From assembly GCA_014383445.1 (NCBI GenBank), contig JACNHV010000190.1, forward strand, positions 1 through 36,526: a stretch of 36,526 nucleotides of DNA, in the 5' to 3' direction. Source of the DNA: Candidatus Desulfobacula maris. Lineage in GTDB: Bacteria; Desulfobacterota; Desulfobacteria; Desulfobacterales; Desulfobacteraceae. Positions 6,041 to 22,719 of this stretch are shown piece by piece (positions within the stretch are counted from its first letter, which is position 1; each line of letters begins with the position of its first letter). A program made the translations under genes and the position numbers. Under the pieces are notes generated by a model. It saw nothing but the letters and a program-made list of their open reading frames with translations. It was not told the origin of the DNA and ran no database searches.

Positions 6041-9022
6041 ATGGAAAGTAGCACATTTGAAAAGGGACAAAAACTTTATGGGTATCTTATTAAAGAGGTA
6101 ACCCAGATTGAAACCATAGATTCAGTGATGATTCAGCTAACGCACCTGAAAACAAAAGCCAGTCATATCCATATTTATAATAAGGATAAGGAAAATACTT
6201 TTGGTGTGTTTTTCAGGACTGTTCCCAAAGACTCCACTGGCGTGGCCCATATTCTTGAGCATACAGTGCTGTGCGGGTCAAAAAAATTCAATGTCCGGGA
6301 TCCTTTTTTCTCCATGATCAAAAGAAGTCTGGCTACTTTTATGAATGCCTTTACCGCATCTGACTGGACCATGTATCCTTTTTCCACCCAGAATTCAAAA
6401 GATTATTACAATTTGATGAATGTCTACCTTGATGCAGCCTTTTTCCCAAGGATTGACGAATTAAGCTTTAAGCAGGAGGGTCATCGCCTGGAAATTATTG
6501 AAAAAAAAGATAAGGGTATTGAACTCGAATATAAAGGTGTTGTCTACAACGAGATGAAAGGTGCCATGTCTTCACCTGGTCAGGTTCTGGGAAGATCTCT
6601 GCTTTCCGCACTTTACCCGGATACGACCTATAGGAATAATTCCGGTGGTGAACCATCCCAGATTCCCTCCCTTACCTGGAAAGATCTAAAAGATTTTCAT
6701 GGCATGTATTATCATCCGTCTAATTCATATTTTTATACCTATGGTAATTTACCGTTGGAAAAAACCCTTTCATTTATTTGTGAAAAAGCTTTGGATCAAT
6801 TTGAATTGTTAGAAATGGATTCAAAAGTACCGGCTCAACCCCGATGGGACTCACCCCGGAAAATAAAAAAAACTTATGCATATTCAGATCCAGATGACAT
6901 ATCAAAAAAATACCAGGCTTGTGTGGCATGGCTGACTTGTGATGTCAAAGATTCTTTTGAAATTCTTGTGCTGAGTATTTTGGAACAGATTCTTTTAGGG
7001 AACTCGGCTTCACCTTTAAGGAAAGCCCTTATCGATTCATCCTTAGGATCTGCCTTGTCTGATTCAACAGGGTTTGACCCGGACAACCGGGACACAATGT
7101 TTAGTTGTGGGTTAAAAGATATCTCCAAAGATTCTGTTGAAACGGTGAAGAAAATCATATTTTCAACCATTAAAGAGATTGCAGATAAAGGGATTGAAAA
7201 GACCCTTATTGAGTCTGCCATCCATCAGATAGAATTTTACAGAAAAGAGATTACCAATACCCCTTACCCTTTTGGTATTAAATTATTGCTTTCTTTTGCC
7301 GGTACTCTTATCCATGATGGTGATCCCGTCTCCTGCATTAATATTGATGAAGATTTGAACACCTTGAAAGAAAAGATAAAGAATGGCCCATTTCTTGAAA
7401 ACAAGCTAAGACAATATTTTCTTGAAAATCCCCATTGGGTACTGTTTACCCTTGAGCCGGATACAGGTCTTGAGCAAAAAAGTCTTGAAGAGACCCAAAA
7501 AGAACTTAAAAATCTTTTAAAGCAAATGAGCAAAAAAGATCTTGAAAAGATCCAAAAGGATACCAAACTCCTTGAAGAGCTCCAGGAAAAAGAAGAAGAT
7601 GTTTCAGTCCTGCCAACACTTGAGCTTGTTGATGTGCCGCCACAAATAGAAATTATAAAACCTGATAAGATCACGGGGGTTAAGCTTTCCACCTGCTATG
7701 ATAAGGCGACTTCGGGTATTCTTTATTTTACTTGTCCTGTAGGGGCCGGAAATATCCCGACGGATCTGTTTGCCCTGGTACCATTTTTCTGCCAATCATT
7801 TACAAACAGTGGAACAAAGAAAAATTCCTATGACAAAATGGCTGAACTCATGGATCTTTATACTGGAGGGATATCTGTTACTCCGTTTTCAGGATCTTAT
7901 TTTTCAAAAGAAGCCGAATCCCATTCGTTTCTTGCCATCCAGGGGAAAGCTTTGGACCGGAATGTTGAAAAGCTGTTTGATTTAATAAAAGAATTTATTG
8001 AAGGATACAATTTTCAGGATTTTGACAGGTTGAAAAGCCTTTTACTGCAATACCAGGCTGGAATGGAAGCATCCATCGTTTCAACGGGGCACAGGTATGC
8101 CATCTCCCTTTCCTGCCGGCATCTTTCAAAAGCATCTTACATTAACGAGCTCTGGCATGGCATTGCCCAATATCAATTCATTAAACAGATTACCGAACAA
8201 TTCAACACAAAAGATAATAAGAATAAAATTCTTGAAGTTCTTTCGGAAAAAATGATCAGGATGGCCCAGTCTGTTTTAAAAAATGGAAATCTTAAACCTG
8301 CTGTGATTGGTAAGAAAAGCGCCATTGTGGTTGCTGAAAAAAGGATTAAAGCTATTCATGAGCATCTTTCAAATGATTCTGACAAATTCTTTTTTACGCC
8401 GGACATATCCTTTAAAGAAGATGTGCCCTTTGACGGCTGGTATACTAATACATCCGTTTCTTTTGTGGGTCAGTCCTTTAAAACCGTTAGCATGACCCAT
8501 GAGGATTCTCCTGGACTTGCTGTGATCAGTAAGATAATCAGATCCATGTATCTTCATCGGGAAATAAGAGAAAAGGGTGGGGCATATGGGGGATTTGCCA
8601 TTTATAACTCTGAAGAGGGTCTTTTTTCATTTGGCTCATACAGAGATCCCCATATTAAACGAACCCTGGATGTATATAAAAATGCCTGTGATTTTATTGT
8701 CAGTGGTGACTATTCCCAGACAGATGTCAAAGAAGCCATTTTGCAGATCTGCTCAGAAATAGACAAACCTGAAACCCCAGGCCCTTCTGCAATGAAAGCA
8801 TTTTACAGGGATATCACAAAATTGGATGATACCATTCGCCAGCAGTTCAAGGATTCTTTGTTACAACTGGATAAAAAAAGAATCCGGATTATTGCTGAAA
8901 AATATTTTATCATTGATGAATCCCTTAAAGGGACAGCAGTTATTTCAAGCAAAAAAATCCTTGAACAAGCAAATCTTCAACTTGGGGCAGAAGAAAAACA
9001 ATTCAATTTGTTTAAAATTTAA
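6041..9022 (+). CDS. M16C zinc metallopeptidase (PreP/falcilysin-like)
   Basis: A 993-residue pitrilysin-type peptidase, the full length expected for the single-chain M16C subfamily. The inverted zinc motif is HILEH (residues 70-74), followed by TVLCGS and RDPFFSM as in presequence protease PreP; the second half carries the M16C-associated domain and a degenerate non-catalytic repeat (ending REKGGAYGGFA near residue 850). Family members form a closed chamber and degrade peptides such as cleaved targeting sequences. There is no signal peptide, so a cytoplasmic peptide-clearing role is likely. The ATG lies 34 bp after the small wHTH gene; GAGAGGA upstream is at the long end of usable spacing. 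Confidence 0.93.
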   Translation: MESSTFEKGQKLYGYLIKEVTQIETIDSVMIQLTHLKTKASHIHIYNKDKENTFGVFFRTVPKDSTGVAHILEHTVLCGSKKFNVRDPFFSMIKRSLATFMNAFTASDWTMYPFSTQNSKDYYNLMNVYLDAAFFPRIDELSFKQEGHRLEIIEKKDKGIELEYKGVVYNEMKGAMSSPGQVLGRSLLSALYPDTTYRNNSGGEPSQIPSLTWKDLKDFHGMYYHPSNSYFYTYGNLPLEKTLSFICEKALDQFELLEMDSKVPAQPRWDSPRKIKKTYAYSDPDDISKKYQACVAWLTCDVKDSFEILVLSILEQILLGNSASPLRKALIDSSLGSALSDSTGFDPDNRDTMFSCGLKDISKDSVETVKKIIFSTIKEIADKGIEKTLIESAIHQIEFYRKEITNTPYPFGIKLLLSFAGTLIHDGDPVSCINIDEDLNTLKEKIKNGPFLENKLRQYFLENPHWVLFTLEPDTGLEQKSLEETQKELKNLLKQMSKKDLEKIQKDTKLLEELQEKEEDVSVLPTLELVDVPPQIEIIKPDKITGVKLSTCYDKATSGILYFTCPVGAGNIPTDLFALVPFFCQSFTNSGTKKNSYDKMAELMDLYTGGISVTPFSGSYFSKEAESHSFLAIQGKALDRNVEKLFDLIKEFIEGYNFQDFDRLKSLLLQYQAGMEASIVSTGHRYAISLSCRHLSKASYINELWHGIAQYQFIKQITEQFNTKDNKNKILEVLSEKMIRMAQSVLKNGNLKPAVIGKKSAIVVAEKRIKAIHEHLSNDSDKFFFTPDISFKEDVPFDGWYTNTSVSFVGQSFKTVSMTHEDSPGLAVISKIIRSMYLHREIREKGGAYGGFAIYNSEEGLFSFGSYRDPHIKRTLDVYKNACDFIVSGDYSQTDVKEAILQICSEIDKPETPGPSAMKAFYRDITKLDDTIRQQFKDSLLQLDKKRIRIIAEKYFIIDESLKGTAVISSKKILEQANLQLGAEEKQFNLFKI

Positions 9023-9204: not shown

Positions 9205-11403
9205 TTAGGAATGACTTTTACGCCAGTCATTATACTGGCACATTCCCCAGAGTGCCTTGACCGCTCTTTCAGGGGAAGGGAAGAACACACTTTTATATTC
9301 ATATCCATCCAACCTGTAAAGGGTTCTGCTGATTTCATCCGTCAAAAGGCTTACCCCCAGAACTGGTTTTTCATATTTTTGAGTTAATTTGACCACGTAT
9401 TGGGTATAGTCTTCTTCAAATTGCAGGATTGCATCCTTGAAAGATTGTGCCTGTGCCTTATCTATTGAAGGATCTGTTTTGAGTACGGATTCAATCATCT
9501 TGTTGACCAGCACCCTTTTCCCATGAATCCCCAGATGGATTACAGCATCGCATCCATCCCATTTGAGCAGTTCTTCCATACAGGTTTTGGGAATGCTTGG
9601 ATCATTTTCTCCTACTATATCAACAGGGTTCCCATGACTCCAGAATGGCGGCAGAATTTTGTTGAGCCGTTCAATGATACCTTTAGAAAGCTTTGGTACC
9701 TCAAGTCCATGTTCTGCACAAAGATCTGTTGTGATCACGCCCCAACCGCCCCCAAGGGTCATGATGGCCACTCTTTTCCCCTTTGGCAGGGGCAAAGATG
9801 AAAATACAGCAGACAGGTCTAAAAGTTCCATGGGCTGATTTACCTGGATAATACCTGATTGTCTGCAGGCGGCATTAAATACTCGTGTGTCCGATGCCAT
9901 GGCCCCGGTATGGCTTGCCGCAGCTTTTTCACCCATACTGGTTCTGCCTCCCTTTAAGACAACCACAGGTTTTTGCCGGGATACCCTTGCCGCACTTTTA
10001 AAAAATCTTGAACCATTCTTTACGCTCTCAATATAAAGAACCACCGTTCTTGTCAGGTCATCAATCTCAAATAATTCCATATAATCTTCAATGGTGACCA
10101 TGGCTTCATTTCCAGACCCTGAAAAAGCCCGGATACCGATATCCTGCCGTTCGGCAAATGCCAGAAGCTGTGTCCCCATATTTCCTGACTGGCAGACTAG
10201 AGCGGTAGAACCCGGTATTGGATAGGCATGGGCAGCACTGCAGTAAAAATCAATATGGGGATTGCATATCCCCATGGTGTTGGGTCCAAGGATCAATATA
10301 CCTGCCTCATAGGCAGCTTTTACAAGTTTTTCCTCTAATTTTTCCCCTTTTTTCCCTACTTCTCTGAACCCGGAAGTGATCAACAATATTCCTTTGACAT
10401 GTTTCTTTTTTAAATCCCGTATCAGATCAATCACCTGGTTTGCCGGAATGGTCACAACTGCCAGTTCAATATCCTCTTCAATCTGGGTGACGGATGTATA
10501 CACTTGTCGGCCGGTTATTTTTCCGCCTCTGGGATTCACAAGGTAAACCTTTCCCTTATAATCCCGGGACAAGGTATTGGTTAAAAGCATATGTCCCCAT
10601 TTCCCCGGAGTTGCCGAGGCCCCGATAAAGGCCAGGGATTTTGGATAGTAACAGGAAGCAAGCTTTATTAAATCAATATCATAGCGTTTGTTTTTGATTT
10701 CCCTTGTCTCTTCCAGCACAATTAAACCGTCTACAGCAACAGGAGATCCATCTGGCTGTATAATCACAGGATTGATATCGATTTCTTTGATATTCGGAAA
10801 AGCATGTGCAATATCTGACAGTCCTTTGAGGATTTTTTTGAGCTCTTGTTTTTTGACTGCTTGTTCACCTCTGAAGGCATTTAAAAGTTTTTTTGAAGAT
10901 ATCTGTTCAAACATATCTTCCATATCAACATCATTTAAGGGAGCGATTTTAAAGACAATATCTTTTAGCGCCTCCGTATATATCCCGCCTAAGCCAAATA
11001 CGATGACCGGGCCAAACTGGGGATCTTTGAACATGCCGGCTACAAATTCCCTTTTGCCTGATACCACCGGCTGAATAAGAAAGGCATCGATATCATCTTT
11101 TGCAGATATTCTCATTTCTTTGACAGCATCAAGGACAGAAGTCTCATCGTGCAATCCGACTCGCACAAGGCCTTTTTCTGTTTTGTGTAGAATGGTCGCA
11201 CTGATACCTTTTAACACCACTGGAAATCCTGTTTCTCGACAGGCCGCAAGGATCTGGTTTGTATCAGTTTCTCGCTTTTCTTTCACCACTGGGATATTAA
11301 ATAATGCAAATATTTTTTTTGCCTCGTCTTCAGGAATGGATTTTGTTTTTGAACAAGCGTTTAATCGTGCATCGATTATTTTTTGAACATCTTTAAGTTT
11401 CAT
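9205..11403 (-). CDS. ADP-forming acyl-CoA synthetase, fused beta-alpha
   Basis: A 732-residue protein of the NDP-forming acyl-CoA synthetase superfamily, which interconverts an acyl-CoA plus ADP and Pi with the acid plus CoA and ATP. Residues ~1-230 are the ATP-grasp (beta) part, with ILHKTEKGLV carrying the conserved His73 and FGLGGIYTE near 136. Residues ~245-345 are the CoA-binding Rossmann domain (SLAFIGASATPGKWG). Residues ~365-520 are the ligase domain with LGPNTMGICNP, SGNMG and AAASHTGAMA, whose His498 is the expected phosphohistidine. The beta-alpha order is the reverse of fused proteins such as E. coli YfiQ/PatZ. The gene begins directly at the end of the tetR gene (TAAATG), so the two are co-translated. 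The acyl substrate cannot be read from sequence. Confidence 0.92.
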   Translation of the reverse strand: MKLKDVQKIIDARLNACSKTKSIPEDEAKKIFALFNIPVVKEKRETDTNQILAACRETGFPVVLKGISATILHKTEKGLVRVGLHDETSVLDAVKEMRISAKDDIDAFLIQPVVSGKREFVAGMFKDPQFGPVIVFGLGGIYTEALKDIVFKIAPLNDVDMEDMFEQISSKKLLNAFRGEQAVKKQELKKILKGLSDIAHAFPNIKEIDINPVIIQPDGSPVAVDGLIVLEETREIKNKRYDIDLIKLASCYYPKSLAFIGASATPGKWGHMLLTNTLSRDYKGKVYLVNPRGGKITGRQVYTSVTQIEEDIELAVVTIPANQVIDLIRDLKKKHVKGILLITSGFREVGKKGEKLEEKLVKAAYEAGILILGPNTMGICNPHIDFYCSAAHAYPIPGSTALVCQSGNMGTQLLAFAERQDIGIRAFSGSGNEAMVTIEDYMELFEIDDLTRTVVLYIESVKNGSRFFKSAARVSRQKPVVVLKGGRTSMGEKAAASHTGAMASDTRVFNAACRQSGIIQVNQPMELLDLSAVFSSLPLPKGKRVAIMTLGGGWGVITTDLCAEHGLEVPKLSKGIIERLNKILPPFWSHGNPVDIVGENDPSIPKTCMEELLKWDGCDAVIHLGIHGKRVLVNKMIESVLKTDPSIDKAQAQSFKDAILQFEEDYTQYVVKLTQKYEKPVLGVSLLTDEISRTLYRLDGYEYKSVFFPSPERAVKALWGMCQYNDWRKSHS

Positions 11404-11997
11404 TTATGCTTTTGCTCCGTTAAATACAATGTTTGCAATACCAGTCGATACCTTGTCAATATCGAGTTTTCTGCCAAAAATAATTTCCCCGAGACAGGCA
11501 TGCTCAATGGCTCCTAATATAACTTTTCTTAATATTAAAGGGTCAATATCGGATTTAAGTTCTCCTTCTTTTAAGCCTTTTTTAATTATCTCAAGAATTG
11601 TGCGGGAATATTTACGAATCATCTCATAGGCACCGGAATCAAAGAAATCCAAAGAATTACGAACTTCAAGCAGGAGGATTTTTGAAAAAATTCTGTTATC
11701 TGCATAGCTTTCAAGGCTTGAGAAAATAATGATTTCAAGCTGTTTGATACAATTGTTTTCTTTTGCTATCCTGCTCTCAATTTTTGTCTGGAACTCTACA
11801 AAATGTTTGTTTAAAACCTGGTATAAAAGATCTTTTTTGTCTTTGAAATATTTATAAATCAATCCTTCTGTGACTTGGGCATTCTTTGCGATTTCTGCTG
11901 TGGTAATGGAATGAAAATCTTTTTGGGCCATGAGAAGAGAAAAAGATTTCATTATTTTTATTCTGCCGGGCGGATTGGTTTTTCCTTTGTGCTTCAT
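11404..11997 (-). CDS. TetR-family transcriptional regulator
   Basis: A 197-residue regulator with an N-terminal HTH (residues ~10-55: SITTAEIAKNAQVTEGLIYKYFKDKKDLLYQ) and a helical ligand-binding domain without obvious motif. I chose the ATG at 11997, seven bases after AAGG, over the TTG two codons upstream. Its stop codon is immediately followed by the start of the ADP-forming acyl-CoA synthetase gene. It is transcribed divergently from the cfa-type gene, and a 19-bp palindrome lies between them. Regulators in such settings usually repress themselves and their neighbours and respond to an acyl-CoA or fatty acid; that role is inference. Confidence 0.9.
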   Translation of the reverse strand: MKHKGKTNPPGRIKIMKSFSLLMAQKDFHSITTAEIAKNAQVTEGLIYKYFKDKKDLLYQVLNKHFVEFQTKIESRIAKENNCIKQLEIIIFSSLESYADNRIFSKILLLEVRNSLDFFDSGAYEMIRKYSRTILEIIKKGLKEGELKSDIDPLILRKVILGAIEHACLGEIIFGRKLDIDKVSTGIANIVFNGAKA

Positions 11998-12046
11998 AAA
12001 CAACCTTTTTAAAAATCTATTTTAGTCAAAATAGTTCACCCTATTG

Positions 12047-12065
12047 GTAAGTAACACTTACTTAC
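12047..12065. promoter_or_regulatory. Candidate TetR operator
   Basis: Perfect inverted repeat GTAAGTAA-CAC-TTACTTAC, 8-bp arms and 3-bp spacer, in the 245-bp divergent region between the tetR gene (start 11997) and the cfa-type gene (start 12243). Size and symmetry are what a TetR dimer binds. It lies 50 bp upstream of tetR. No convincing -35/-10 pair stood out beside it. Confidence 0.65.
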
Positions 12066-12242
12066 AAAAACAAAGAATGTCAACTCTACTGTTGAAAATA
12101 AAATTAATACTATTAAAAAAATACTTGAATTATACTTTAGTTATTCATATAGTTTACAAAGCATAGCTAAATGTAAAAGAAAAAGGCTTATAATAAACCA
12201 ATATTTTTTTTGAAATCCATATTCTTAACAGAGGTGGACGAC

Positions 12243-13364
12243 ATGAATAATAAAGAGGTAAAAAAAGCATTCTCTTCTTTAATGCAGTTTGCAGGAATCA
12301 CTGTTAACGGCAAAAAATCCTATGATATTCAAGTTTATAATGATCAATTCTATTCCCGGGTTCTGGAACAAACCACATTAGGACTTGGCGAATCCTACAT
12401 GGACAAGTGGTGGGATTGCAGGGCCCTTGATCAGTTCATAGAAAAAGTGACACGTGCCAATCTTTTATCCAGACTGAAAACAGACTGGGCAACCGCATGG
12501 AATATCATTAAATCAAGAATTCTCAATCTGCAGACAACGGGGCGTGCTTTTATTGTAGGTAAAAAACATTATGACATAGGGAATGATCTTTACCAAAGGA
12601 TGCTGGACAGGCGCATGCAGTATACTTGCGGCTACTGGGATAATGCGGACAGTCTGGATACGGCCCAGGAGGCAAAGCTCCAGATGATCTGCCGGAAAAT
12701 GGACTTAAAACCCGGGATGACAATTGCCGAACTCGGATGCGGGTTTGGCGGGTTTGCCCAATATGCCGCAAAAAAACATGGGGTCCGTGTGGTGGGTTAT
12801 ACAGTATCAAGAGAACAGGCCCTTTTTGCAAAACAATGGTGCAGGGGATTGCCCGTTGACATCAGGCTTGAAGATTATAGAAAAGCAGTTGGACAATATG
12901 ACCGGGTAGTCTCCATCGGGCTGATGGAGCATGTGGGGTATAAAAATTATCGGACCTATATGAAAATGACTTCCCGCCTGTTAAAAGAGGATGGTATTGC
13001 GTTTATTCATACGATTGGAAGCAATATCAGCCGCAGCATATGTAATCCATGGACATCCAAATATATATTCCCGAATTCAATGCTGCCATCAATTGCCCAA
13101 TTAGGGAAATCCATGGAAGGATATTTTGTTGTGGAGGACTGGCACAATTTTGGTGAAGACTATGATAAAACCCTGATGGCCTGGTGGAAGAATTTTGAGA
13201 ATGCCTGGCCGGAACTGGAAAGCAAATATGGGGACAGGTTTTACAGGATGTGGAAATACTATCTTTTAAGTTGTGCCGGCGGCTTTCGTTCAAGGCTCAT
13301 GCAGCTCTGGCAGGTTGTCATGACCAAACCCGGCAGAACCCGGCCGGATTGCCGAATTCGTTGA
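12243..13364 (+). CDS. cfa: Cyclopropane-fatty-acid synthase family methyltransferase
   Basis: A 373-residue SAM-dependent enzyme that methylates the double bond of unsaturated acyl chains in membrane phospholipids. It aligns along its whole length with E. coli Cfa at a constant offset of ten residues: C129, E229, H256, I258 and Y307 match the bicarbonate-site residues C139, E239, H266, I268 and Y317. SAM motif I is ELGCGFGG (163-170), followed by GLMEHVGYKNY and the C-terminal ED-WHNFG-DYD-TLMAW region. The chosen ATG follows GAGGTGG at good spacing; an upstream in-frame start at 12210 has no such site. A flavoprotein gene of the geranylgeranyl-reductase family begins 10 bp downstream, so the pair is probably one transcript. 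The product may be a cyclopropane or a methyl-branched chain. Confidence 0.93.
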   Translation: MNNKEVKKAFSSLMQFAGITVNGKKSYDIQVYNDQFYSRVLEQTTLGLGESYMDKWWDCRALDQFIEKVTRANLLSRLKTDWATAWNIIKSRILNLQTTGRAFIVGKKHYDIGNDLYQRMLDRRMQYTCGYWDNADSLDTAQEAKLQMICRKMDLKPGMTIAELGCGFGGFAQYAAKKHGVRVVGYTVSREQALFAKQWCRGLPVDIRLEDYRKAVGQYDRVVSIGLMEHVGYKNYRTYMKMTSRLLKEDGIAFIHTIGSNISRSICNPWTSKYIFPNSMLPSIAQLGKSMEGYFVVEDWHNFGEDYDKTLMAWWKNFENAWPELESKYGDRFYRMWKYYLLSCAGGFRSRLMQLWQVVMTKPGRTRPDCRIR

Positions 13365-13374
13365 TCTGTTTAAA

Positions 13375-14346
13375 ATGATAAGATCAGACATCATTATAGT
13401 GGGTGGTGGTCCGTCAGGATCAGCCTGTGCCTGGCAACTCAGGAAATCAGGCCTGGACGTTGTGATCCTTGAAAAAAAAACATTTCCAAGGGCAAAGGTC
13501 TGTGCCGGTTGGATAACCCCGAAAGTACTGGATCTTCTCGGCATCACTCCGGAAGAATATCCCTATCTGCTTATGCAGTTTAACCGGATTCATTTTTATC
13601 TGTTCGGAATCCATGTTCCAATCAGAACACGCCAATATGCCGTCCGAAGATATGAATTTGATGAATGGATGGTTTCGCGTTCCCAAGTCCCGGTTTTTAC
13701 CCACACCGTGAAAAATATTGTCAAAGCCAATGGGGGCTATGTCATTGATAATAAATACAGGTGCAAATACCTGGTTGGCGCAGGAGGAACGCACTGCCCT
13801 GTTTTTAAAATTTTTTTTTCCACATCAAATCAAAGAACTGGCAAAGCATTGATTACAGCCATTGAAAAAGAGTATCGCTGCGACTATTTAGATAAAGAAT
13901 GTCATTTATGGTTTTTTGATAATGGTCTGCCCGGATATGCCTGGTACCTGCCAAAGGGAAACAACTGGCTGAATATCGGTATTGGCGGTAAGTTCATTAA
14001 ATTAAAATCCAGTGGAAAAACCATCCTGGACCACTGGCACAAATTCACAAAAAAACTTGAGCAGCGTTCCCTGATAAAGAATATCCCGGAAAATCCCAGG
14101 GGGCATCAATATTATCTTCACCAGAAAAAACAGACCACACGGCAGGATAACGCCTTTATCATCGGGGATGCCGTTGGAATGGCCACTATTGATATGGGAG
14201 AAGGTATCCATGCAGCCGTGGTCAGCGGATTGATGGCGGCCAAGGCTATTGCAGGAAAAAAGGGATACAACCCGGATTCTTTATCAAAATTCAGCCTGCC
14301 AGGCATTTTCAGGGCAGGCAAAAAAATAGAACCTCGCAACCCCTGA
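13375..14346 (+). CDS. Geranylgeranyl-reductase-family flavoprotein
   Basis: A 323-residue FAD-dependent oxidoreductase. Visible are the FAD-binding GGGPSG (residues 10-15) with the ribose-binding acid E33, the family KVCAGW motif (41-46), VGAGGTHCPV (134-143), the hallmark PGYAWYLPK then LNIGIGG (186-205), and the second FAD motif GDAVGMATIDMGEG (264-277). Members of this family reduce isolated C=C bonds in lipids, for example in archaeal isoprenoid ethers and the chlorophyll phytyl chain. It begins 10 bp after the cfa-type gene without a clear Shine-Dalgarno, suggesting translational coupling. The protein is somewhat short but all motifs are there and the end (SLSKFSLPGIF) resembles family C-termini. 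A role in reducing a methylated acyl chain made by its neighbour is my inference. Confidence 0.85.
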   Translation: MIRSDIIIVGGGPSGSACAWQLRKSGLDVVILEKKTFPRAKVCAGWITPKVLDLLGITPEEYPYLLMQFNRIHFYLFGIHVPIRTRQYAVRRYEFDEWMVSRSQVPVFTHTVKNIVKANGGYVIDNKYRCKYLVGAGGTHCPVFKIFFSTSNQRTGKALITAIEKEYRCDYLDKECHLWFFDNGLPGYAWYLPKGNNWLNIGIGGKFIKLKSSGKTILDHWHKFTKKLEQRSLIKNIPENPRGHQYYLHQKKQTTRQDNAFIIGDAVGMATIDMGEGIHAAVVSGLMAAKAIAGKKGYNPDSLSKFSLPGIFRAGKKIEPRNP

Positions 14347-14549: not shown

Positions 14550-15422
14550 ATGGAACCAGAAAAAACAATTGTCGGATTTATCGGTTTGGGTGTAATGGGT
14601 CAAAGCATGGCCACACATATTTTAAATGCAGGATACAAACTGCATGTCTATACCCGCACAAAGCAAAAAGCTGAAAATATCATTTCAAAAGGTGCTGTGT
14701 GGGAAGATACCGTATCTGAGTTGAGCGCAAAATGTAATGTCATTATTACCATTGTCGGATTCCCCGTTGATGTTGAAGAGGTGTATCTGGGAGATCATGG
14801 TGTTTTAAATCATGCCGGAAAAGGGTCAATTGTGATTGATATGACCACGTCCAGCCCTGACCTTGCAGTTAAAATTTATGAAAAGGCAAAGGGAAAAGGT
14901 ATTGAATCTCTTGATGCCCCCGTGTCAGGCGGGGATCTTGGCGCTAAAAACGCCACTCTTTCAATTATGGTCGGAGGGGATAAGGAAACCTTTGATAAAG
15001 TCTTCCCGCTTTTTGAAGTAATGGGTAAAAATATTGTGCTGCAGGGTAAAGCTGGTGCAGGGCAGCATACAAAAATGGCAAATCAGATTGCCATTGCATC
15101 AGGAATGGTAGCTGTCTGCGAGGCCCTGGCCTATGCCAAAAAGGCAGGCCTTGACCCGGAAGCTGTGCTGAAATGCATTGGGCCGGGTGCAGCAGGATCA
15201 TGGTCATTGAATAATCTTGGACCCAGGATGATTGTAGGAAATTTTGAGCCCGGGTTTTATATTCGGCATTTTATAAAGGATATGAACATTGCTGCTGCTT
15301 CATCAAGCCATTTAGGACTCAAAACCCCGGGGCTTGATCTTGCCCTGTCTTTATATAAAAAAATGGAAGAAAAAGGATTGGAAAGCGAGGGTACCCAGGC
15401 TTTGTTTAAATTGTATATGTAG
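14550..15422 (+). CDS. NAD(P)-dependent beta-hydroxyacid dehydrogenase
   Basis: A 290-residue member of the 3-hydroxyisobutyrate dehydrogenase / tartronate-semialdehyde reductase family. It has the Rossmann motif GFIGLGVMGQ (residues 9-18), the substrate motif DAPVSGG (122-128), and the catalytic lysine K175 in GQHTKMANQ. Such enzymes oxidise or reduce short beta-hydroxy acids or succinic/glyoxylic semialdehydes; the exact substrate is not evident. The ATG is supported by GGGGCGGAG upstream. The 203-bp gap before it (14347-14549) holds no recognisable gene. The yqaA-type gene follows after five bases. Confidence 0.9.
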   Translation: MEPEKTIVGFIGLGVMGQSMATHILNAGYKLHVYTRTKQKAENIISKGAVWEDTVSELSAKCNVIITIVGFPVDVEEVYLGDHGVLNHAGKGSIVIDMTTSSPDLAVKIYEKAKGKGIESLDAPVSGGDLGAKNATLSIMVGGDKETFDKVFPLFEVMGKNIVLQGKAGAGQHTKMANQIAIASGMVAVCEALAYAKKAGLDPEAVLKCIGPGAAGSWSLNNLGPRMIVGNFEPGFYIRHFIKDMNIAAASSSHLGLKTPGLDLALSLYKKMEEKGLESEGTQALFKLYM

Positions 15423-19122: not shown

Positions 19123-19743
19123 TTAAAGGGGGAGTGTTTGAAAATCATTCATAAATTGTGTCACGATTTTCAAAAGCCCTGTGTTCCAGCCCGAAACAAG
19201 CTTAGAAGGATCATTGGATGAAATGTTTTCTTCGGCCAGATAGGTCTTGCTGGAAATTGTCTGGAAGGCAAGGTCATCCTTTTTTTCCAGAATCATACTG
19301 ATTTCAATGACTGCCCTGAGATTAGAAGGATCCTGGAAATCTCCGTAAAGCCGGGTGATTTTCCCGGATAACCGAAAGCTGATATTTTGTTTCATGTTTG
19401 TCTGTATAGAGGTGAAAAGATTTGAAGCACAAAGGCTTCCCTCTATTTTTTCAGTAATCAGTCTTGCAGGAGAACTGACAAATTCGTTGTAATAATCGAT
19501 TGCATATTTGTTTTTTTCCAGGCGGTAAACAAAAGAATGGGAATTAAAAACAGGATTTATATAAAATTCTTTGACCAAAAGAGTCTCGCTTTTACAGACC
19601 TTATTCTGGCTTGAAACCGGAAGCGAAATAGCCAGGTCAAAATAGCTTTTGTTGACAGGCTCTTTTTTTAAACCTGTGCATCCATAAAATGAGATAAGGA
19701 TAACCAGAAATCCCTTTAAAACAATAGAAATTTTTGGCTGCAT
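19123..19743 (-). CDS. ABC transport auxiliary lipoprotein (PqiC/YmbA-like)
   Basis: A 206-residue protein with an N-terminal hydrophobic segment ending in FYGC (Cys22), a rather atypical lipobox. The rest resembles the ABC-type transport auxiliary domain (an early YFDLAISLP strand, VYRLEKNKYAIDYYNEFVSSPA, then a repeat of short strands), which accompanies MCE systems such as PqiABC and Pseudomonas Mla-like operons as an outer-membrane lipoprotein. Its ATG overlaps the mlaD-type stop by one base (TGATG), so it is the last gene of the four-gene operon. The assignment rests mainly on context and overall pattern. Confidence 0.75.
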   Translation of the reverse strand: MQPKISIVLKGFLVILISFYGCTGLKKEPVNKSYFDLAISLPVSSQNKVCKSETLLVKEFYINPVFNSHSFVYRLEKNKYAIDYYNEFVSSPARLITEKIEGSLCASNLFTSIQTNMKQNISFRLSGKITRLYGDFQDPSNLRAVIEISMILEKKDDLAFQTISSKTYLAEENISSNDPSKLVSGWNTGLLKIVTQFMNDFQTLPL

Positions 19744-20831
19744 CAGTCTTTTTTCTCCATATTTATTTTTTCCGGGGGCTTTTCAAAGAGCAGCCTGCCA
19801 GGATATCTTCTTATGTCTTTGCTCATTTGTTTTAAATTTTCAGAAGTGGTTTCAATATTTTCAATGATCAGACCAATCTTGTCAGAATTCAGCCAGACCA
19901 TGTTCTCCAGAAGTCCTGACGTAGCAGCAAGGCTTTTCGTCAATCGGTCCAGGTTGGAAGACAGGCTGTCAATCCGGGGGGACAGCCGGGTTTCAAGTCC
20001 TGCAGCCATATTCTTTGTGCTGTCAGCCGCTTTTTGAAAATCATTGATCGCCTTGTTCAAAGGGGTTTTAGCTGTCTCAATAATAGTTCTCAGTTCAGCA
20101 AAAGAGGTTTGGGCATCATCCAGAAATCGTTTGACCTTGGTGGATCCGATTGCCGTGTTGATTTTCTGGTTGGTGTCTTTGAGTTCTTTTAACAATGATG
20201 CGGCCAAACTGGAGATATTATCAATATCAAAGTTATTGGCTTTTTGATCCAGGGTCTTTAAAAGGGTTTCGATATCCAGTGTAATCCCTTTCAGATTGAT
20301 GGATGCAAGATTGTCAAGAATTAGGTTAAGGGCATCTCCAAACTGTTTCATATTGCTTTTTTTTGACGGGATATAAATGTTTTTTGGTGTCCAGGAAATG
20401 TCAAGCTTGTCATTGGGATCTTTCACTGAATAATCTGTTTCAAGATAAGCTACTCCGGTCAGCCCTTTAAAGGAAAGCCGGATTGTCAGGCCATCATTAA
20501 TGGCGTTTTGGATTCTAATTTTGGCCGTGCCCCCTGTCTGGCCCAGGGAAATGCTGTCTTCGAGAGATATGATGACCAGTACATAATCTGACTTTGTCTG
20601 ATAGACCTGGGCAGCACTGGTCATGGATTTGACAGATCCGATTTTTATCCCTTTATATTTAACCTCAGATCCGATACTTAATCCTTGTACAGACTCATTA
20701 AAACATGTTTCAGCAAGCAGTTCCTTTTTGAAAAATTGTCCTGCCCCGAAAATGATTAAAAATGTCGCTCCAAGTCCAAATGCAATAATCACAAACAGGC
20801 CGAGCTTAAAGAAATTTGCTTTTTGGGTCAT
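19743..20831 (-). CDS. MlaD-type MCE-domain lipid transport protein
   Basis: A 362-residue protein with one N-terminal membrane helix (residues ~8-30) and a single MCE domain (~40-115, with VQGLSIGSEVKYKGIKIGSV). The long C-terminal part (~165-350) is helical and heptad-like, with many Ser/Asn/Leu residues, suggesting a periplasmic coiled bundle. MCE proteins form hexameric rings that carry phospholipids between inner and outer membranes. It overlaps the ATPase gene by 4 bp and the lipoprotein gene by 1 bp. It is longer than E. coli MlaD, closer to the single-MCE proteins of deltaproteobacterial operons. Confidence 0.9.
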   Translation of the reverse strand: MTQKANFFKLGLFVIIAFGLGATFLIIFGAGQFFKKELLAETCFNESVQGLSIGSEVKYKGIKIGSVKSMTSAAQVYQTKSDYVLVIISLEDSISLGQTGGTAKIRIQNAINDGLTIRLSFKGLTGVAYLETDYSVKDPNDKLDISWTPKNIYIPSKKSNMKQFGDALNLILDNLASINLKGITLDIETLLKTLDQKANNFDIDNISSLAASLLKELKDTNQKINTAIGSTKVKRFLDDAQTSFAELRTIIETAKTPLNKAINDFQKAADSTKNMAAGLETRLSPRIDSLSSNLDRLTKSLAATSGLLENMVWLNSDKIGLIIENIETTSENLKQMSKDIRRYPGRLLFEKPPEKINMEKKD

Positions 20832-21595
20832 TTTTCACCTTTATGGATTGTCCGGTTAAAAAAATTATAGACATAGGGATTGCTGTGGTCATTTTTCAGC
20901 TGTTCCGGTGTTCCTGTTGCAATGATTGTCTTTGCATCCTTTTCAAGCATGATGATCCTGTCGGATATAGCGTTAATACTTGCCAGTTCATGGGTGACAA
21001 TTACAAATGTGATGCCAAGTGAAGAAGCAAGCTCCATCACCAGATGATCAAGTCCTGCTGAAGTAGTGGGGTCAAGCCCTGCAGAGGGTTCATCCAGAAA
21101 AATAATGGATGGATCAAGGGCCATGGCACGGGCCAGGGCAGCCCTTTTTTTCATGCCGCCGGACAGTTCCCCGGGCATGAGAAAAACTGCTTTTTCAAGT
21201 CCTACCAGTTTGAGTTTCAACCATACAATGTCATCCATGACCGAGTCCGGAAGGCTTGTGAATTCTTTTAAGACAAGTTTAACATTCTCCATCACCGTCA
21301 TGGAACCGAATAATGCCCCGCTCTGGAAAGCAACTCCTATTTTTTGCAGGATACGATTTTTTTCTTTTCCAATGGCCTGGGACAGGTTTTCTCCCAGAAT
21401 CATCACATTGCCTGAAATAGGAGGTAAAAGCCCGATCATGTTTTTTAGCAGCGTGCTTTTCCCGCACCCGGACCCGCCGATAATTACAAAGACTTCGCCT
21501 TTAAATACCTTAAAATTAATATTTTCAATAATCGGGATGTTGTTATATCCAGCATAGAGGTTTTCTATTTTTATGATTGTTTCGATCTGTTTCAT
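20828..21595 (-). CDS. mlaF: Mla-type ABC transporter ATPase
   Basis: A 255-residue ATPase subunit of a phospholipid transporter. Walker A GGSGCGKST (residues 40-48), Q-loop VAFQSGALFGSMTV (88-101, including the SGALFGSMT pattern characteristic of MlaF), signature LSGGMKKR (144-151) and Walker B IIFLDEP (164-170) with SAGLDP are intact. Its start overlaps the permease stop by 4 bp and its stop overlaps the MCE gene start by 4 bp, so the four proteins are made together. Confidence 0.95.
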   Translation of the reverse strand: MKQIETIIKIENLYAGYNNIPIIENINFKVFKGEVFVIIGGSGCGKSTLLKNMIGLLPPISGNVMILGENLSQAIGKEKNRILQKIGVAFQSGALFGSMTVMENVKLVLKEFTSLPDSVMDDIVWLKLKLVGLEKAVFLMPGELSGGMKKRAALARAMALDPSIIFLDEPSAGLDPTTSAGLDHLVMELASSLGITFVIVTHELASINAISDRIIMLEKDAKTIIATGTPEQLKNDHSNPYVYNFFNRTIHKGEK

Positions 21596-22719
21596 ACGCC
21601 AAGATAATAATACATAATTGAAAAAATTCCATCAAACACGGCAATCAGGATAATGCCGGTAACAACGGCACGGGTGGTTGAGACCCCGACGGCAGAAGGT
21701 CCGCTTTGGGTTTGGTATCCCCTGATACAGCCGGATGTTGCAATCAGAATTCCGAAAACAAAGCATTTTGCAAGCCCGCCTACAAAATCATTCCATTCCA
21801 CAAAGGATGCAATCTGGTTGTAATAGGAGATAATGGGATATCCCAGGGATGTAATCACAAGGGCGCCTCCCAGTATTCCTACAAGGTTTGAAAATATTGT
21901 TAATAAAGGGGTAATAATCGTTAACGCAATGATTCTGGGGACAATCAGGAACCGAATCGGATCGAGTCCCATGACCGTTAATGCATCGATCTCTTCGTTG
22001 ATCCTCATGGTTCCGATTTCAGCGGCAAAGGCAGATGCAGATCTTCCGGCCAGGACAATGGCTGTCATCAGGGGCCCAAGTTCTCTTATCATGGCGATCC
22101 CGATGAGATTGGCCACATAGAGTTCCGCTCCGAACATGCGCATGGGTATGGCAGCCTGAAAGGCCATGACAAGACCGACAATAAAGCTGATCAAGGCAAC
22201 GATGGGAAGCGCATCTACTCCGGCACGTTCGGCAACCAGGAAGGTGTCTGCCCACCGGATTGTTTTTGGATGTTTAAGGCTTTGAATCAGGGCCCAGGTG
22301 ATCTCTCCTATGTAGGTTATAAATTCTTTTGTTTCCGAAAAAGTGTCTGAAAGGTTTTTCCCTTTATTATCAACAAAGGAAAGTTTTTTAGGTATCTGAT
22401 CTGAAAAGTCTTTTTGTTTTATACTCTTTGCAAGTTCAATAAGGGGTGAAAATTCCTGTTTAAGATTGACAATAAAAAGCTCTTTAACTCCCCGGGTTCT
22501 GACAAGTTTTTCTATATGGTAAATAAGGGTGGCTCCTGCCGTATCCAGATAATTCACTCGTTCAAGATCAAGGGTCAGGTTTGAGAGGTCACAACTAGAA
22601 ATTTTTTTGGTGATCGCCTGCCAAAGGTTTGATGTCCCTTTTGCATCAAGCCTGCCCGTGATGGAGATACGCGTACCATGACTGTCCTTTGAAACTATGA
22701 ATTCTGGTAGAAAGTTCAT
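21592..22719 (-). CDS. mlaE: MlaE-type permease with N-terminal STAS domain
   Basis: A 375-residue fusion. Residues ~1-105 form a STAS-like domain (strand/helix pattern with LTLDLERVNYLDTAGATLIYHIEK in two parts, typical of the anti-sigma-antagonist fold), and ~140-375 form the MlaE permease with AFQAAIPMRMFGAELYVANLIG, RELGPLMTAIVLAGRSASAFAAEIGTM in pieces and five or so membrane helices. In E. coli the STAS protein MlaB is separate and binds the ATPase to switch the transporter; here it is joined to the permease, as in many proteobacteria. It is the first gene of the operon; the Shine-Dalgarno is weak. Confidence 0.92.
   Translation of the reverse strand: MNFLPEFIVSKDSHGTRISITGRLDAKGTSNLWQAITKKISSCDLSNLTLDLERVNYLDTAGATLIYHIEKLVRTRGVKELFIVNLKQEFSPLIELAKSIKQKDFSDQIPKKLSFVDNKGKNLSDTFSETKEFITYIGEITWALIQSLKHPKTIRWADTFLVAERAGVDALPIVALISFIVGLVMAFQAAIPMRMFGAELYVANLIGIAMIRELGPLMTAIVLAGRSASAFAAEIGTMRINEEIDALTVMGLDPIRFLIVPRIIALTIITPLLTIFSNLVGILGGALVITSLGYPIISYYNQIASFVEWNDFVGGLAKCFVFGILIATSGCIRGYQTQSGPSAVGVSTTRAVVTGIILIAVFDGIFSIMYYYLGV

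Follow-up and report, generated by a model that had tools for sequence, protein, structure and literature searches.

A two-gene locus of Candidatus Desulfobacula maris, very probably orthologous to the tmpBA operon, and the probable lineages of methyltransferase paired with its reductase

10-Methylpalmitate (10-methyl-16:0) is a marker lipid of Desulfobacter-type sulfate reducers and, in sediments, a standard marker for sulfate reducers that oxidise acetate. The window analysed here is a stretch of 36,526 nucleotides from Candidatus Desulfobacula maris (contig 17 of a 4.85-Mb genome that is 94% complete). It carries a gene for a Cfa-type methyltransferase with a flavoprotein gene close behind it, which raises the question of whether the two proteins together make this lipid or whether the methyltransferase is a plain cyclopropane fatty acid synthase with a neighbour that acts on something else.

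The earlier note had described a methyltransferase gene and, 10 bp downstream, a flavoprotein gene, and both open reading frames were confirmed as open, complete and on the same strand. The first, tmpB (12243..13364, + strand), encodes a 373-aa Cfa/CMAS-family S-adenosylmethionine (SAM) methyltransferase predicted to form 10-methylene acyl phospholipids. Its ATG lies 5 nt behind a Shine-Dalgarno-like AGAGGTGG (12230..12237, + strand), read from the sequence, and its TGA ends at 13364. After a gap of 10 nt (13365..13374, + strand), tmpA begins with an ATG at 13375 and runs to 14346 (+ strand); it encodes a 323-aa, FAD-dependent, geranylgeranyl-reductase (GGR)-like flavoprotein of type I, predicted to reduce the 10-methylene to the 10-methyl chain. 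One transcription unit is likely, and the adjacency is kept in all 21 neighbourhoods compared below. A search for RNA families at gathering score and for tRNAs gave no match in the window.

TmpB matched Pfam CMAS at 263 bits and the NCBIfam Cfa equivalog PRK11705 at 578 bits, above the cut-off of 400, and it belongs to the E. coli Cfa subfamily (type I). Its solved relative is E. coli Cfa (6bqc, 440 bits), with 53% identity over 352 aa. In the alignment, the E. coli columns C139, E239, H266, I268 and Y317, which we take to be the bicarbonate site, correspond to C129, E229, H256, I258 and Y307 in TmpB, so the claim that all bicarbonate-site residues are present held for these five columns. The active-site columns of PRK11705-type Cfas are thus kept, and membership by sequence leaves the product undecided. 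E. coli Cfa produces cyclopropane acids; it resembles TmpB in subfamily and in active-site columns, whereas its gene in MG1655 has no TmpA-like flavoprotein gene adjoining.

The best NCBIfam match of the flavoprotein was TIGR02032 (GG-red-SF; 142 bits, E 2.8e-41), which agrees with its earlier placement in a family that reduces lipid C=C bonds. As this score is just under the cut-off of 158.8, the protein is termed GGR-like and is not filed as a member. The score against Pfam GGR_cat was 28.8 (threshold 27). The family features named in the part of PMC10821996 drawn on here are GxGxxG, a conserved cysteine, YxW in the cavity motif and RxxFD, and the window's TmpA has GxGxxG, C43, YxW and RxxFD. 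C43, Y188, W190, R92 and D96 are present in 81 of 81 TmpA rows, and E94 and F95 in 79, in a count that left out beforehand seven rows taken as non-TmpA (L033-L036, L084, L087 and L155). L084 is one of nine type II-like genes from the phylum search described below. The residue after the cavity motif, P193, is proline in 44 of 44 type I sequences and mostly arginine in type II (33 of 37).

A PDB search with a profile built from 20 TmpA sequences returned the archaeal digeranylgeranylglycerophospholipid reductase 3oz2 first (E 6.9e-20, positions 1-308 of 320), followed by other geranylgeranyl reductase entries and flavin-dependent halogenases. The archaeal (digeranyl)geranylgeranyl reductases 3oz2 and 3atq share with TmpA the FAD-binding sequence, the conserved cysteine, YxW and RxxFD. 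They are 397 and 453 aa long, whereas type I TmpA has about 320 aa, ends earlier, carries its own KxCAGW signature and, unlike them, is encoded beside an acyl-chain methyltransferase gene. A structure model of TmpA built from three sequences had a mean pLDDT of 32.9 and was not used.

A pair of this kind is already in print. In the sections drawn on here, Blitzblau et al. (2021; PMC7791843), who cite Dowling et al. (1986) on the marker lipid, scanned Desulfobacteraceae for cfa homologues with a reductase next to them and gave the two-gene operon that emerged the name tmpBA, for 'ten methyl palmitate'. Four of their five operons gave 10-methylenepalmitate in E. coli: palmitoleate was converted to it at 31.5% with the Desulfobacter postgatei operon and 11.8% with that of Desulfobacula toluolica, and the figures for Marinobacter hydrocarbonoclasticus and Thiohalospira halophila were 45.3% and 70.4%. 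The 'Desulfobacter balticum' operon gave 0 product. None of the five yielded 10-methylpalmitate, TmpA being inactive in E. coli and yeast; the authors liken TmpA to anaerobic archaeal geranylgeranyl reductases and name oxygen sensitivity, or an electron carrier missing from the hosts, as possible causes. Later literature on tmpBA was not found in a search that had subscription journals mostly outside it.

In the window, a Cfa-family gene is followed directly by a GGR-like flavoprotein gene on the same strand. The likeness to tmpBA, as given in the portion of PMC7791843 used here, extends to gene order, both protein families and taxon (Desulfobacteraceae, including Desulfobacula toluolica), and would extend to the product. 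The window pair is very probably an orthologue of the published operon, and since tmpBA has been named already, the novelty of the pair is much lower.

That TmpB makes a 10-methylene chain and TmpA reduces it to 10-methylpalmitate is, as a whole explanation, very probable, and the window pair would be expected to act like the assayed operons. With SAM as methyl donor, TmpB would methylate membrane phospholipids at C10 of a cis-9 unsaturated acyl chain (mainly 16:1), and the resulting carbocation would lose a proton, leaving a 10-methylene chain rather than a cyclopropane ring. Such methyl transfer and carbocation chemistry is what the Cfa enzyme family does. TmpA, related to the geranylgeranyl reductases, would add two hydrogens via reduced FAD to give 10-methylpalmitate. 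The earlier note had likewise proposed a methylene intermediate and a reductase from a family other than the actinobacterial one, which is the reading published for tmpBA; in the available text of PMC7791843 the methylene step was demonstrated with operons including those of D. postgatei and D. toluolica, and no reduction was observed, every assayed tmpA being inactive in E. coli and yeast.

The bfaAB or tms genes of actinobacteria (10-methylstearate) resemble the window pair in combining a CMAS methyltransferase with a flavoprotein reductase and in their two-step logic. The window's flavoprotein gene is second, not first as in bfaAB, and its product has 12 Pfam matches, none of them to FAD_binding_4, which we take to be the Pfam family of BfaA. 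The sections of PMC7791843 used here also place BfaA and TmpA in different flavoprotein families and give the opposite gene order for bfaAB. At two actinobacterial plasmid loci with Cfa genes, the partners are of other kinds (an FAD-dependent oxidoreductase and DUF1365 at one, a desaturase and a nitroreductase family protein at the other), so no BfaB control sequence came from them. A search for TmpA on plasmids returned eight records, none TmpA-like: six were 23-26% identical over 87-93% of the query, another 28% over 62% and the last 50% over 17%.

Orthologues of the window's TmpA and TmpB were sought in 86 family genomes. Those of TmpA were found in 25 (48-100% identity, E at most 2.4e-88), and TmpB orthologues (58-100%) in the same 25, with only pieces at contig ends in G065. 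The two genes are adjacent, cfa first, in 25 of 25 (the adjacent TmpB of G072 being a contig-end piece), and chance adjacency is rejected on this count. Neither gene is intact in the remaining 61 genomes. Two of these retain part of TmpA, as a remnant of 98 residues in G023 and a piece of 70 residues in G070. Other GGR-like genes of the family, where most of the length matches, are 24-34% identical, a wide gap below the TmpA orthologues. The nearer of two relatives found in the contig scan was L006, from a Desulfobacula metagenome bin (flavoprotein 73%). One pair each was found in G055, which is of the window's genus (TmpB 72%, TmpA 61% identical to the window's), and in G014 (67% and 57%); the window pair is clearly orthologous to both.

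Two further classes of Cfa occur in the family, with 48-54% and 28-38% identity to TmpB. TmpA was near none of the 20 fetched loci of the 48-54% class (about 2.5 kb each side where the contig allowed). An unpaired Cfa (48-51%) is present in 12 of the 25 pair-bearing genomes and a piece of one in two more; a separate cyclopropane enzyme is therefore often at hand. In the window's own genome no unpaired Cfa of the 48-54% class was shown; it has one other clear Cfa-like gene (L002, 29% identity) and two weak methyltransferase matches. The 4 kb read around L002 contained no reductase of the TmpA kind, and there is no second TmpA-like gene in this genome at E 0.001.

Neighbourhoods from 20 genomes and from the window, 21 in all, were compared over 1.3 to 10.9 kb each side. 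Only TmpB and TmpA are common to all; the next ORF family, of at least 90 aa, occurs in five. As a threshold of 90 aa could miss a small ferredoxin, the comparison was repeated with small ORFs; within 3 kb of tmpA, none of their families was present in more than three of the 21. The CxxCxxCxxxC motif was seen in small ORFs of three neighbourhoods (L232, L239 and L243), and only in L239 does such an ORF adjoin tmpA, on the opposite strand. Thus, no conserved electron carrier gene was found near tmpA in the 21 neighbourhoods, which suggests that TmpA is probably reduced by a low-potential donor of general use, such as ferredoxin. No third gene being generally kept, the unit is one of two genes. 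In L006 and the 20 neighbourhoods there was no TetR match to the window's upstream TetR-type regulator, and its upstream ADP-forming acyl-CoA ligase had one marginal match.

Beyond the family, the search covered 395 genomes of the phylum and 369 of gammaproteobacteria, with counts that are lower bounds, no more than five candidates having been scored per genome. A TmpA-like gene (E 1e-30) is present in at least 20 genomes of the phylum, the window's own included. Ten further genes are of type I (46-53% identity), with a methyltransferase adjoining in all ten, and nine are of the longer type II (32-40%), with one adjoining in eight. In gammaproteobacteria a TmpA-like gene (E 1e-30) was found in at least 39 genomes, and a CMAS gene adjoins in 34 of the 39 loci, two of these being a piece or a divergent copy. 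The five without an adjoining methyltransferase are G719, G633, G618, G806 and G720: G719 has a type II TmpB elsewhere in the genome, G633 has two pieces on two contigs, G618 has a distant Cfa only and G806 has none at E 1e-15. Type II TmpB (at least 52% identity) was found in 15 of 114 gammaproteobacterial genomes, with TmpA adjoining in ten and no TmpA in the genome in five. Three of these five have no TmpA match at 1e-5; the other two match weakly and in the N-terminal part only. One genome among the five comprises 1.4 Mb only. In the window's family, then, tmpB and tmpA are strictly linked; in gammaproteobacteria the linkage is looser.

These five genomes, together with the lack of reduction by TmpA in E. 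coli or yeast (PMC7791843, in the sections used), favour a reading in which TmpB forms the 10-methylene chain and another enzyme reduces it, with TmpA as a helper part or an oxidiser of the chain. It is nevertheless very unlikely. The negative assays could be explained by the oxygen sensitivity or missing electron carrier that the same authors suggest, TmpA retains the motifs of GGR-type double-bond reductases, and no further reductase gene is generally conserved nearby.

The methyltransferase paired with TmpA is not one family; there are at least two, probably three, METHYLTRANSFERASE lineages. TmpB is handled as one kind in the available part of PMC7791843, in contrast with this result, and the several lineages are new as far as the literature searched goes. 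Three trees, a quick one of 99 rows, a careful one of 54 rows and one of 44 rows to which two solved cyclopropane synthases were added, agree on the lineages. Type I TmpB, to which the window's belongs, is a clade with 100/100 support in the 54-row and 44-row trees and is nested in the E. coli Cfa group (100/100), together with gammaproteobacterial Cfas and unpaired Desulfobacteraceae Cfas. Type II, which includes most gammaproteobacterial partners, forms a separate clade (100/99 with 54 rows and 100/100 with 44), with a support in the quick tree of 87-98, depending on where the clade edge is drawn. A type II TmpB (L007) has 35% identity to that of the window. Forcing types I and II into one clade cost 137 log-likelihood units in the first set (p-AU 3e-117) and 155 in the second (p-AU 1e-16), values that are nominal, as the groups were named after the first tree, with differences that are large nonetheless. 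A single clade of both types is rejected by the AU tests in both sets. The TmpB proteins of Marinobacter and Thiohalospira assayed in PMC7791843, as far as its available text describes them, are likely to be of type II.

The third lineage paired with TmpA comprises three loci (L114-L116). In the 44-row tree, L114 and L115 cluster with a different type of Cfa (100/99). The careful trees did not include L116, which in the quick tree falls with these two, on a long branch. At the gammaproteobacterial locus L117, a type I TmpA is found with an E. coli-type Cfa that lies apart from type I TmpB in the free tree, and joining the two is not rejected (p-AU 0.47).

On the reductase side, the TmpA rows group together, apart from five other GGR-like rows (100/98), in a tree with two long rows of unsure place (L155 and L084) and a bootstrap that had not settled. 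The type I TmpA clade (100/100) includes gammaproteobacterial members. Pairing was tallied over 84 distinct TmpA-like loci that scored above 100 bits, with each site counted once, and a CMAS gene lies directly upstream on the same strand in 77. Type I TmpA is found with type I TmpB (or the E. coli-type Cfa of L117) in 36 of the 77, counting as paired L019, whose ORFs run off the contig end. Type II TmpA is paired with type II TmpB in 32, type I TmpA with type II TmpB in six, all gammaproteobacterial (L126, L129, L149, L150, L152 and L154), and TmpA with the third methyltransferase lineage in three. The seven loci with no upstream CMAS gene are L032, a remnant, and L084, L103, L113, L151, L153 and L155.

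As one reductase is found with methyltransferases of different descent, TmpA most likely acts on what these share, the common product of its partners, which would be the methylated acyl chain; this pointer to the substrate is independent of the published assays. A wider reading is favoured, by a little: TmpA may be a portable reductase that acts on membrane acyl chains with a methylene branch and has been joined, each time independently, to at least three Cfa-type lineages. The switch from cyclopropane to 10-methylene may then have arisen two or more times, one of them within the E. coli Cfa subfamily, where a few substitutions would have sufficed and where the window's lineage lies.

Residues that might mark TmpB were compared in 33 type I and 37 type II sequences and in 9 + 12 unpaired Cfa rows. 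The position preceding the active-site cysteine (T128 in the window, S138 in E. coli) is threonine in 30 of 33 type I, 37 of 37 type II and 1 of 21 unpaired sequences; the column of window E163 is glutamate in 25 of 33, 37 of 37 and 0 of 21. The held-out set comprised 60 further Cfas (20 from Desulfobacteraceae and 40 from gammaproteobacteria), with no TmpA in the fetched stretches and one weak, 26-bit GGR-like match (L214). T128 was present in 0 of the 20 and 10 of the 40, and E163 in 0 of the 20 and 19 of the 40. Both occur together in 1 of 60 (L216), and the combination is missing from 11 of 33 type I TmpB. Neither residue being diagnostic on the held-out set, both were rejected as markers.

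That tmpB might encode an ordinary cyclopropane fatty acid synthase, and that the flavoprotein might act elsewhere, for example on menaquinone or polyprenyl side chains, is consistent with the score above the Cfa equivalog cut-off (578 against 400), with the five kept active-site columns and with the reduction of isoprenoids by the flavoprotein's family. The earlier note had kept a plain cyclopropane product as an alternative, and this is now most unlikely. Related operons gave 10-methylenepalmitate in E. coli, and the experiments with those of D. postgatei and D. toluolica disfavour a cyclopropane product for the TmpB clade (PMC7791843, in the part available). The flavoprotein gene is tied to several methyltransferase lineages and generally to nothing else in the 21 neighbourhoods, and its product matched the MenJ model at only 57 bits against a cut-off of 700. 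The unpaired Cfas in 12 of the 25 pair-bearing genomes, with a piece in two more, likewise count against this reading.

Against the preferred explanation, a 10-methylene chain made by TmpB and reduced by TmpA, stand the absence of activity from every assayed TmpA and of product from the 'Desulfobacter balticum' operon (PMC7791843, sections used here), the looser pairing in gammaproteobacteria, the Cfa active-site residues kept in TmpB with no marker residue, and the sub-cut-off family score of TmpA.

The window pair is ordinary in kind, a further member of a published operon in a genus where that operon was described. A modest addition is that one reductase is coupled with methyltransferases of several lineages, which makes the reduction step and the product switch easier to test. 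Strict linkage in the family, no third gene that is generally kept and several partner lineages give genomic support, independent of assays, for TmpA as the second enzyme, and the tmpB-tmpA pair is suggested as a gene marker for predicting 10-methyl lipids from genomes. As sulfate reducers have a methylene-forming enzyme from within the E. coli Cfa clade, the choice between ring and methylene should be accessible by mutagenesis between close relatives. If TmpA is indeed a portable reductase, the window's lineage would be a natural system in which to find the substitutions that switch the product.

On its 5' side, tmpB (12243-13364, +) is preceded by a gene for a TetR-family regulator (11404-12003, -), whose best NCBIfam match is the Bacillus-type FadR (96 bits, under the cut-off of 200 for that family). 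The regulator gene is adjoined by one encoding an ADP-forming acyl-CoA ligase (9205-11403, -), and an inverted repeat, GTAAGT-aac-ACTTAC (12047-12061), lies between the regulator and tmpB. This TetR-family regulator, which may control tmpBA, was absent beside the other tmpBA pairs compared, those of the named Desulfobacula relative (L006) and of 20 neighbourhoods from family genomes.

The gene 3' of tmpA (13375-14346, +) encodes a dehydrogenase of the 3-hydroxyisobutyrate/2-hydroxy-3-oxopropionate kind (14550-15422, +). Among the same loci, a relative was found in L237 only (56%), about 5 kb away from the tmpBA of that locus. Approximately 5 kb downstream of the window pair is a set of Mla-type phospholipid transport genes (19743-22719, -), encoding an MlaE permease with a STAS domain, an ABC ATPase and MlaD. 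In the L239 neighbourhood, and there only, tmpA is directly adjoined by a small ORF on the opposite strand (8475-8849 of that locus, +) that encodes the iron-sulfur motif CxxCxxCxxxC.

The G065 assembly carries tmpBA twice, on contigs 352 and 288 (TmpA 52% and 53%), with TmpB cut by a contig end in both copies. G023, a six-contig genome without a TmpB orthologue, retains a type I TmpA remnant of about 97 residues (L032, 1501-1791), which is a decayed operon. Five gammaproteobacterial genomes (L156-L160) have type II TmpB, of a lineage apart from the type I protein of the window, and TmpA is absent from each genome. The genes flanking type II TmpB in L156, compared by eye, are similar to those of the intact type II locus L007, as if TmpA had been lost.
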